Of a DNA stretch of 35,099 bases, positions 31,053 to 35,099 are shown one piece after another. This DNA is from Defluviitaleaceae bacterium (lineage in GTDB: Bacteria > Bacillota > Clostridia > Lachnospirales > WQUN01). The stretch lies in the NCBI GenBank assembly GCA_009785615.1, contig WQVX01000013.1, positions 1 to 35,099 on the forward strand. The letters run 5' to 3'. The notes beneath the pieces are model-generated. The model was not told where the DNA came from, made no database searches, and was given only the letters and a program-made list of their open reading frames with translations. A program made the position numbers and the translations under genes. Numbering within the stretch: position 1 is the stretch's first letter; the number at the start of each line of letters is the position of its first letter.

Positions 31053-31093
31053 GAAAAAAAAAGCCAATGTCCACAATTTTTGGACACCGGCTT
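31053..31093 (-). terminator. Terminator of the SpoIVFA/SpoIVFB operon
   Basis: On the minus strand a 13-bp stem (31093-31081 with 31073-31061, two G-U pairs) with a 7-nt loop runs into a T tract of nine or so residues. The stop codon of the SpoIVFB-like gene lies at the foot of the stem, so the hairpin overlaps the coding end. Confidence 0.9.
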
Positions 31094-31946
31094 AGGTGCT
31101 TCTCGAAAAATGCAAATAATCTTCTAATGTTCCCAAGATCCCATAACGAGTTACATAGTTAATAATTTCCATTTCATTTATAGTAGCAATAGTGACAGTT
31201 TTAGTACGATCTATCACTGTTATTACAAGAATGTGATCCCAGCCCATGCTTTCAACTATCTTAGCCAAAGGATAATTAGCTTTTGCACATAAAGGTTTAA
31301 TAGGTAACATGCCTTTTGATAATCTGCCGGACTTATTTAGCATGGCCAAATAAAATTCTCCTGTCAGCTCAACTTTTATATTACAGTTTTGCCGCCAAAG
31401 AGTAAACCCAACAAGCAACATGGTAAAGTTTGGGGCATATAAAATAGCTTGAACCACTCCCAATGCCATTAAAACAATGCAACATATTTGCCCTATACGT
31501 ATTGCACGACGGTTTGCACGCATAGCACCTAAGTGGTTTCCCATCCACAATTGAAACAACTTTGCTCCGTCCAATGGAAAAATGGGCAGCAGATTAAAGA
31601 TACCTAATATTAAATTGTAAAAACCGAATGACTCCATACCTATGCTTACAAAAAACTGCATATTCTGCTCAATCAGGAACCATAACAAAAAATTACATGC
31701 CGGCCCTGCGGCTATAACTGCTGTCCGCTTCCAAGGAGTTAAGCGATCCATACGATTAATGCGCGCTATTTCTCCCAATGCACTGATGCGTAGCTGAATA
31801 GTTTTGCATCCAAAGGCTTTAGCAACCACTATATGAGCAAGTTCATGTAAAGTTACTGCTGAAATAACCATTAAAAAAACAATGCCCAGACCCATGATCC
31901 AAAAAATTGCCGCTGCCAGCCAAAATGATAAATGTATCTTTATCAT
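31092..31946 (-). CDS. spoIVFB: SpoIVFB-type site-2 membrane metalloprotease
   Basis: A 284-residue intramembrane zinc protease of family M50. Several hydrophobic segments span the first ~190 residues. The zinc site HELAH is at residues 34-38, and the second conserved motif is in LLPIFPLDGAKLF near 130, where the Asp is the third ligand. The C-terminal ~80 residues resemble the CBS-like cytosolic domain of SpoIVFB. In Bacillus, SpoIVFB cleaves pro-sigma-K in the mother cell and is held inactive by SpoIVFA. Its ATG overlaps the stop of the M23 gene (ATGA, 31943-31946), so the pair is translationally coupled, which strengthens the assignment. A generic M50 protease is the alternative. Confidence 0.87.
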   Translation of the reverse strand: MIKIHLSFWLAAAIFWIMGLGIVFLMVISAVTLHELAHIVVAKAFGCKTIQLRISALGEIARINRMDRLTPWKRTAVIAAGPACNFLLWFLIEQNMQFFVSIGMESFGFYNLILGIFNLLPIFPLDGAKLFQLWMGNHLGAMRANRRAIRIGQICCIVLMALGVVQAILYAPNFTMLLVGFTLWRQNCNIKVELTGEFYLAMLNKSGRLSKGMLPIKPLCAKANYPLAKIVESMGWDHILVITVIDRTKTVTIATINEMEIINYVTRYGILGTLEDYLHFSRST

Positions 31947-32410
31947 CGGCCGGCATATTCTAATGCGGCATTAGTTGATAAATTTAAATTTACCCTGGTT
32001 AAAGGATCCAACCGCTGACCATTACGCGAAATTCCATAATGAAGATGCGGGCCGGTAGATTGCCCTGTATTGCCGGACAGCGCAACTTTTTGCCCTCTAG
32101 CTACCCGATCATTTACATTAACTTTGAACTCGCTAAGGTGAGCGTAAACAATATGGTATCCATAGTCACATCGAAGGCGCATATATTTGCCGTTAACAGG
32201 GGTATCGCCTACATGGTATACAGTAGCATAACGGACAGCTAATACCGGAGTGCCAACGGGCACAGCAATATCTAATCCTGTATGAAACTCTGCCTCTTGA
32301 GTAACCGGGTTAGTCCGCATTCCAAATAACGAAGTTACCAACCCTTCTACCGGGTTAATCCAATCATACCTACCGGATGATTCTGATGCAATTGATTCTA
32401 ACACCGACAC
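31943..32410 (-). CDS. M23/LytM domain, C-terminal part of a SpoIVFA-like protein
   Basis: A 155-residue LytM-type peptidase domain. The zinc ligands are complete: H43 and D47 in FHTGLDIAV, H122 and H124 in GPHLHYG, with the H91 site in YAHLS. No signal peptide or membrane segment is present, which is odd for an M23 protein. The annotated start is a GTG at 32410 with no ribosome binding site, while coding-like residues (e.g. NIAGAVESTDIIVSVLES) continue upstream in the same frame until a TGA at about 32481-32483. That overlap and the adjacent gene's C-terminus suggest that the two are halves of one SpoIVFA-like protein separated by a frameshift. It overlaps the spoIVFB start by 4 bases. Confidence 0.75.
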   Translation of the reverse strand: MSVLESIASESSGRYDWINPVEGLVTSLFGMRTNPVTQEAEFHTGLDIAVPVGTPVLAVRYATVYHVGDTPVNGKYMRLRCDYGYHIVYAHLSEFKVNVNDRVARGQKVALSGNTGQSTGPHLHYGISRNGQRLDPLTRVNLNLSTNAALEYAGR

Positions 32411-32427
32411 AATAATATCTGTCGATT

Positions 32428-33021
32428 CTACAGCTCCGGCAATGTTATCGGCTCCGGAGCTGTAGTCTGTAAATCGTCACTATCCGTCCAGCCGAATATT
32501 TCTCGCAGCATATCCTCATCTATACGAGGAGCTACGGTTTGTCCTTCTATTGGCAAAGATTGAAATTCTAAAGCATCATAACCAATTGGAGTATCTGCAT
32601 CTCCTAAATCTTCACCTAAAAATCTACGAACCTCTATAGCCACCTGCTCTATTGTAATGTTCCCTGATATGGCTTGGTTGAGGTTAGTTACAATATTTGC
32701 TGCCTGTGGATGATCTGTTAGGTTTAAAACCAATACTACTGTAAAAATGATTCCGCTGATTATCCCTTGAACAATAAGTTTTTCTCTAAAGCTAATTGTT
32801 TCCGGCGTGTCATCTTTATTATCTTTATCATCTTTATCGTTTTTACCATGCTTATCATGTTTACCATGTCTATCAGGTTTAATATGATAAGCAAAATGAC
32901 CACTCTCCTGATTTTGAAACATTGGCTTATGGATACTATGGCTTATAGCATGTTGGTCAGGTTCTTGAGGGTTCGGACGCAACTTTGACGGCGTGTATCG
33001 CCGATAGTGTTCCCTTTCCAT
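32428..33021 (-). CDS. N-terminal part of a SpoIVFA-like membrane protein
   Basis: A 197-residue protein with a basic, charged N-terminal region containing a His/Lys/Asp-rich repeat (KHGKNDKDDKDNKDD, ~52-67), then one transmembrane helix (LIVQGIISGIIFTVVLVLNL, ~84-103) and an acidic extracellular or mother-cell-side segment. This is the organisation of the first half of SpoIVFA, the regulator that anchors and inhibits SpoIVFB. The stop TAG lies 17 bases upstream of the GTG of the M23 frame and the reading frames differ by two. The ATG is at 33021 with AGGAGA upstream on the minus strand. The alternative is a separate small membrane protein, but the gene order favours one split gene. Confidence 0.7.
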   Translation of the reverse strand: MEREHYRRYTPSKLRPNPQEPDQHAISHSIHKPMFQNQESGHFAYHIKPDRHGKHDKHGKNDKDDKDNKDDTPETISFREKLIVQGIISGIIFTVVLVLNLTDHPQAANIVTNLNQAISGNITIEQVAIEVRRFLGEDLGDADTPIGYDALEFQSLPIEGQTVAPRIDEDMLREIFGWTDSDDLQTTAPEPITLPEL

Positions 33022-33104
33022 ATGATGTCTCCTTAGTCATATTTTATAGCACTTTCAGTATTTCATAAACATATGCTTAGCCTAGCTAAACTATTCCGGG
33101 GCAT

Positions 33105-34689: not shown

Positions 34690-34768
34690 GGGACAAATTA
34701 ACATGATGACTATAATGCGAGTCTAAAGTTACATAACTGAAAGTGTTAGGTATGTGGGGGATTAAAAA

Positions 34769-35099
34769 TGTGGTTTTTATTTCTATTCAGATTAATTTTA
34801 CTCATTATTGGTATAGTGGCACTTTATATTGCAATTAAAAAGCGGGATATAGTTGCTGCGTGGCCAGCCGCATTTACTTTGTTATTATTTATTTACAGTG
34901 AATTAATCGAACCTCCTGATATCATACATATTCAGCCACCTCAAGTACCAACACCTACGCCTGAGCCGCCAGTAGTACCTACGCCTGAGCCGCCAGCAGT
35001 ACCAACACCTACGCCTGAGCCGCCAGCAGTACCAACACCTACGCCTGAGCTGCCAGTAGTACCAACACCTACGCCTGAGCCGCCAGCAGTACCAACACC
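34769..35099 (+). CDS. Membrane protein with proline-rich tandem repeats (partial, runs off the window)
   Basis: The gene starts at ATG 34769 after a GTGGGGGA site and stays open to the end of the window (110 codons). The first ~45 residues hold two hydrophobic stretches (MWFLFLFRLILLIIGIVALY and a second around WPAAFTLLLFIY) separated by a short basic loop (KKRD). The rest is PTPEPPAV-type repeats, with periods of 10 residues (30 bases). The repeats predict an extended polyproline-like stalk, perhaps crossing the wall. The function and the C-terminus are unknown because the sequence ends. Confidence 0.75.
34951..35099 (+). repeat. 30-bp tandem repeat in the proline-rich gene
   Basis: About five near-identical units of 30 bases encode PPAVPTPTPE-like decapeptides; the first unit is shortened to 24 bases. 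Units differ by a base or two (e.g. a CTG for CCG and GTA for GCA change). The array reaches the window end, so its true length is unknown. Confidence 0.9.

Follow-up and report, generated by a model that had tools for sequence, protein, structure and literature searches.

Two halves of a SpoIVFA-like gene

The locus lies on the minus strand of the window, that is, the whole 35,099-nucleotide stretch of DNA that was analysed. It consists of a membrane half (33021–32428) and an M23 half (frame open 32476–31943) in different reading frames, directly 5' of spoIVFB, and all features of the locus described below are on this strand. The membrane half (0 frame, 32428–33021) is an ORF of 197 amino acids that runs from the ATG at 33021, with a Shine-Dalgarno sequence AAGGAG ahead of it at 33034–33029, to the TAG at 32428 (stop codon 32428–32430). 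One transmembrane (TM) helix is predicted by a hydropathy criterion at residues ~82–101 (32719–32778, LIVQGIISGIIFTVVLVLNL). This half gave no Pfam or NCBIfam match; homologous membrane halves occur in relatives. Ahead of the TM helix, at 32800–32900, there are Lys/Asp/His-rich repeats with a 9-nt unit, and this region also holds an 80% inverted repeat (32849–32893).

The ORF with the M23 half (31943–32476) is in the -1 frame relative to the first. It contains a GTG at 32410, 17 bases beyond the first-half stop, and ends at the TGA at 31943. It encodes a Peptidase_M23 domain (32003–32287; Pfam PF01551, 1.5e-29) with the motifs HTGLD and HLH, which correspond to the zinc ligands of peptidase family M23, HxxxD and HxH. 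No Shine-Dalgarno sequence was found before the GTG, and no signal sequence in the M23 half. Upstream of the GTG, the frame is open as far as the TGA at 32479–32477, which gives it an overlap of 46 nt (sense bases) with the 0 frame. The next gene encodes a SpoIVFB-like M50 intramembrane protease (31092–31946; PF02163, 5.4e-18), the ATG of which overlaps the M23-frame stop in an ATGA (31946–31943) and has no Shine-Dalgarno sequence of its own. The genome from which the window comes also has both bofA and spoIVB.

These results agree with an earlier sequence-only reading of the window. It had described a 197-residue membrane protein ending shortly before the GTG of an M23 frame that lacks a ribosome binding site and a signal, coding-like sequence extending upstream of that GTG past the first stop, and an ATGA link to SpoIVFB. 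The joined protein of ~355 residues that it predicted is close to the ~359 residues obtained here (see below).

The designation SpoIVFA-like is assigned by position and architecture. The gene is directly 5' of spoIVFB and, only if the two frames are joined, it encodes a single TM anchor followed by a C-terminal M23/LytM domain. In both respects it is like SpoIVFA of Bacillus subtilis, which is one continuous ORF; in contrast to it, the gene here is split and its zinc-site motifs are intact. The LytM domain of the B. subtilis protein has been described as probably inactive (PMC3533761). Elsewhere in the window, an ORF at 34768–35097 runs past the window end and has a repeated proline-rich unit, PTPTPEPP.

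The gene among relatives

A first search of 60 relatives showed that the same split is common among them. In the survey, which was anchored mainly on spoIVFB and in which the loci were classified by script, split loci were found in 58 genomes of the window's order. The second frame is -1 relative to the first in 41 of these (21 genera, 9 families) and +1 in the other 17 (5 genera, 3 families), and the two open frames overlap in every case. Both zinc-site motifs, HxGxD and HxH, are kept in all 58 split M23 halves, compared to only 14 of the 55 fused genes outside the order. Thirteen further genomes of the order have the membrane half only before spoIVFB, and five have a single fused ORF. Each of the two predicted products is thus found alone elsewhere, in short-only and in fused-only relatives, respectively. 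In a tree of SpoIVFB, which is a quick tree with many weak branches, the +1 loci form blocks, and loci with the fused or the short-only state branch from within the frameshifted ones.

Outside the order, no split was seen in the named loci, the first class loci or 40 further class loci. Where an M23 gene adjoins in the named loci and in the first set of class loci, it is contained in one ORF; of the 40 further class loci, 21 are fused and the other 19 lack an M23 gene, most of them having a short membrane ORF in its place. The scan of named genomes with SpoIVFB yielded outgroups and none of the split loci of the order. An M23 match in G008 (L217) had at first been classed as split; it was removed for its low score and the absence of spoIVFB. 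Likewise, "fused" matches without spoIVFB (L024, L027, L028, L030 and L216) were not counted, as they resemble other M23 proteins.

The sequence-only reading had offered a sequencing or assembly error, a real mutation and programmed frameshifting side by side, unranked. The last of these is the best supported by the comparison. Some circumstances do speak for an error, or for a mutation that recently inactivated the gene in this genome: the window comes from a draft genome of 240 contigs, and inverted repeats, of which there is one in the overlap, can cause errors. However, 13 sequences of the window's family align with almost no gaps through the stem and the frame, and the -1 arrangement is common to the window and its 12 relatives. 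The split is moreover conserved across the order, including four genomes in single-contig assemblies, with the M23 motifs intact. Since the -1 relation recurs in 21 genera and the +1 relation in five, with halves that always overlap, both error and mutation are very unlikely. This explanation appears largely refuted by the comparison, and we give it next to no probability.

A short single-TM protein without M23 precedes many SpoIVFB loci (L125–L136, L146, L147, L199 and several of the class loci L249–L282), and this short-only SpoIVFA-like form occurs both in the order and in other Clostridia. The window's 0-frame product has the motif RIDEDMLREI near its C-terminus (32497–32526), and motifs of this type are also found near the C-terminus in several short-only relatives. 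The recurring pattern, RIDEDIL..[IM], is present in the short ORFs of L131–L136, L146, L147 and L199; in short-only proteins it is often at most 10 residues from the end.

Candidate frameshift signals in the order and in the window

We consider first whether the M23 half could be a separate protein, with translation starting independently or, after termination, by reinitiation at the overlap. A GTG is present in the M23 frame near the stop in some loci, the window included, and stop/start coupling is common in operons. Relatives with separately initiated halves were the case that the sequence-only reading had put forward against a joined protein, and by this test the survey does not refute the joined protein: in 24 of the 58 split loci the M23 frame contains no ATG, GTG or TTG ahead of the domain, and in 53 it contains none with a Shine-Dalgarno match of 4 nt. 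An M23 half on its own would also lack both an anchor and a signal, and two separate proteins would leave the slippery motifs and the CCC TAG stops described below unexplained. We therefore regard this option as highly improbable.

For the -1 loci, a canonical in-frame X_XXY_YYZ heptamer was sought in the last 60 nt of the overlap, with equal windows from the same ORFs as controls. It is present in 29 of the 41 loci, compared to 16% of the control windows, and absent from the other 12. The binomial p is ~2e-14 by species and ~4e-7 by genus (14 of 21); genomes of the same genus are not independent. In much of the window's family the heptamer reads A_AAC_CCN and a hairpin follows. A_AAA_AAA, A_AAA_AAG and A_AAA_AAC are the forms seen in other families; they mostly lie at the stop or immediately 5' of it, and a hairpin often comes next. 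Strong downstream hairpins were found in many -1 loci, and RNA folding revealed none in the +1 loci. The latter have a different signature, namely that the first frame ends in CCC TAG (16 of 17) or TTT TAG (1 of 17), compared to CCC in 2 of 99 control ends.

The A-rich motifs could point to an origin of the shift other than the ribosome, namely slippage on A-runs, either during transcription or as phase-variable slippage of the DNA. A_AAA_AAA indeed accounts for 13 of the 29 heptamer loci, some of them within runs of at least 8 A. However, A_AAC_CCN, G_GGA_AAG, CCC TAG and the site in the window are not long homopolymer runs, and the hairpins together with the immediate stop fit the ribosome better, which makes slippage of this kind very unlikely.

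The signals resemble those of known systems. As in the -1 frameshifting of dnaX and the IS3/IS1 family, there is an X_XXY_YYZ heptamer, overlapping -1 frames, a downstream hairpin and two products with a common N-terminus; the differences are that the gene here is a chromosomal spoIVFA-like one, that the stem in the window's family is nearer to the slippery site, and that the window itself has a weak tetramer at best. The +1 orthologues, with CCC or TTT before TAG, recall the +1 frameshift of prfB (release factor 2), where the stop likewise interrupts a conserved gene after a shift-prone codon. Unlike in prfB, the gene is spoIVFA-like, the stop is TAG and most members are -1.

We now come to the site in the window. 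The overlap contains a perfect 12-bp inverted repeat, absent from the sequence-only reading, with a 14-nt loop. The 5' arm (CTACAGCTCCGG, 32454–32465) was assigned from the inverted repeat, the fold and a register common to relatives, and the 3' arm (CCGGAGCTGTAG, 32428–32439), which contains the 0-frame stop TAG, from the inverted repeat and the fold. A 65-nt RNA around the repeat folds with -28.2 kcal/mol (z = -6.3 compared to shuffles), and this stem could serve as the downstream stimulatory structure of a -1 frameshift site. No canonical X_XXY_YYZ heptamer is found in the overlap, where the only Z_ZZN motif is T_TTA (32470–32473), a candidate slippery tetramer of a weak, non-canonical type. 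A 4-nt spacer, CAGA (32466–32469), separates it from the stem. At the aligned slippery position the window has A_CAG_ACT, compared to A_AAC_CCN in most family relatives. In E. coli, U_UUA with a strong stimulator gave only 1.8- to 3.6-fold more frameshifting than background, a range that spans four motifs (PMC4066793). Because the canonical heptamer is absent and only the weak T_TTA is available, the window's own efficiency is uncertain, and the site may shift rarely or by another route. The claim of frameshifting is stronger for the family than for this single site.

In the family, the stem register is shared and 82% of the cells pair, with compensatory changes on both sides at two pairs. The covariation score, for which RNAalifold was also used, is 0.280, compared to 0.213 for shuffled and at most 0.127 for slid versions; it exceeds nearly all shuffles and every slid version of these sequences, which are related to one another. 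The covariation is modest, in a stem that lies in doubly coding sequence where few pairs vary freely. The stem begins 0–4 nt past the slippery site, nearer than usual, and some relatives have an apparent bulge in its outer part.

It should also be considered that the split is an early stage on the way to losing the M23 domain, the short form being the only one still functional. The short-only relatives inside the order and in other Clostridia would agree with such decay of the gene family, as would the degenerate slippery site of the window. However, none of the 58 split M23 halves has lost the zinc-site motifs, and the slippery motifs are enriched, from which the second half appears to be still under selection. 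We consider decay very improbable.

Taken together, the conserved overlapping frames, with the second ORF in the -1 frame in the window and in all 41 -1 loci, the conservation of the shift across the order, the slippery sites, the hairpins, the intact M23 motifs and the lack of separate M23 start signals make it very probable that programmed -1 ribosomal frameshifting is the way in which this spoIVFA-like gene is expressed. From these observations we infer the slippage itself, its translational nature and its efficiency; the use of T_TTA in the window and the roles of the two forms discussed below are likewise proposed on the basis of sequence.

In this mechanism, in-frame ribosomes would stop at the TAG at 32428, and this normal termination is predicted to give a short form of 197 aa that is anchored in the membrane and lacks the M23 domain. 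Some of the ribosomes would instead slip back by one base just 5' of the 12-bp hairpin and enter the M23 frame, terminating at the TGA that overlaps the SpoIVFB start. The product would be a full-length SpoIVFA-like protein of ~359 aa (computed as 184 + 175 residues for a slip at TTA) with a membrane anchor, a linker and an M23 domain placed outside the mother-cell cytoplasm. Without the shift, this domain would be neither anchored nor exported.

Possible role in sporulation

SpoIVFB is the protease in control of the late stages of spore formation. By analogy with B. subtilis (PMC9042235), the contacts to SpoIVFB and BofA would be made by the membrane part, and cleavage of the C-terminal domain by SpoIVB would release the inhibition. 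The short form has the membrane part but not the putative SpoIVB target domain, and the frameshift would in this way determine how much of the SpoIVFA-like partner is releasable relative to the non-releasable form. Perhaps it also sets the level of SpoIVFB, through coupling. Within the window's family, SpoIVFB usually starts in an overlap with the stop upstream of it and has no ribosome binding site of its own, irrespective of the form present, and because of this overlap the frameshifting ribosomes may also feed SpoIVFB. We tentatively propose, as a possibility rather than a likelihood, that the frameshift serves to control the sigma-K checkpoint in the order, acting through the ratio of the short form to the full-length form, which is possibly an active M23 peptidase, and that it may set the amount of SpoIVFB, possibly in a regulated manner.

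Surveys have recognized spoIVFA rarely or not at all in clostridia (PMC3533761, PMC9042235, PMC12632252) and have described the gene as absent or displaced there (PMC3533761, PMC3416734, PMC12632252), and recent work has raised the question of what controls SpoIVFB in those clostridia in which the gene seems to be missing (PMC12632252). In the window's order a spoIVFA-like gene is present yet split over two frames, and it would thus be easily missed by annotation; the cutting of the frameshifted gene in two may be part of the reason for its "absence" in this order. Among the open-licence papers searched, also on sporulation, endospores and M23, none was found to report frameshifting in this gene. 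Few bacterial genes outside mobile elements have a conserved frameshift. The switch between -1 and +1 among orthologues amounts to a natural experiment, and the close short-only, fused and frameshifted relatives make the purpose of the frameshift directly testable.

Finally, a split spoIVFA-like gene without an adjoining spoIVFB was found at five loci (L009, L020, L021, L023 and L029), from which the frameshift may have a role beyond SpoIVFB.
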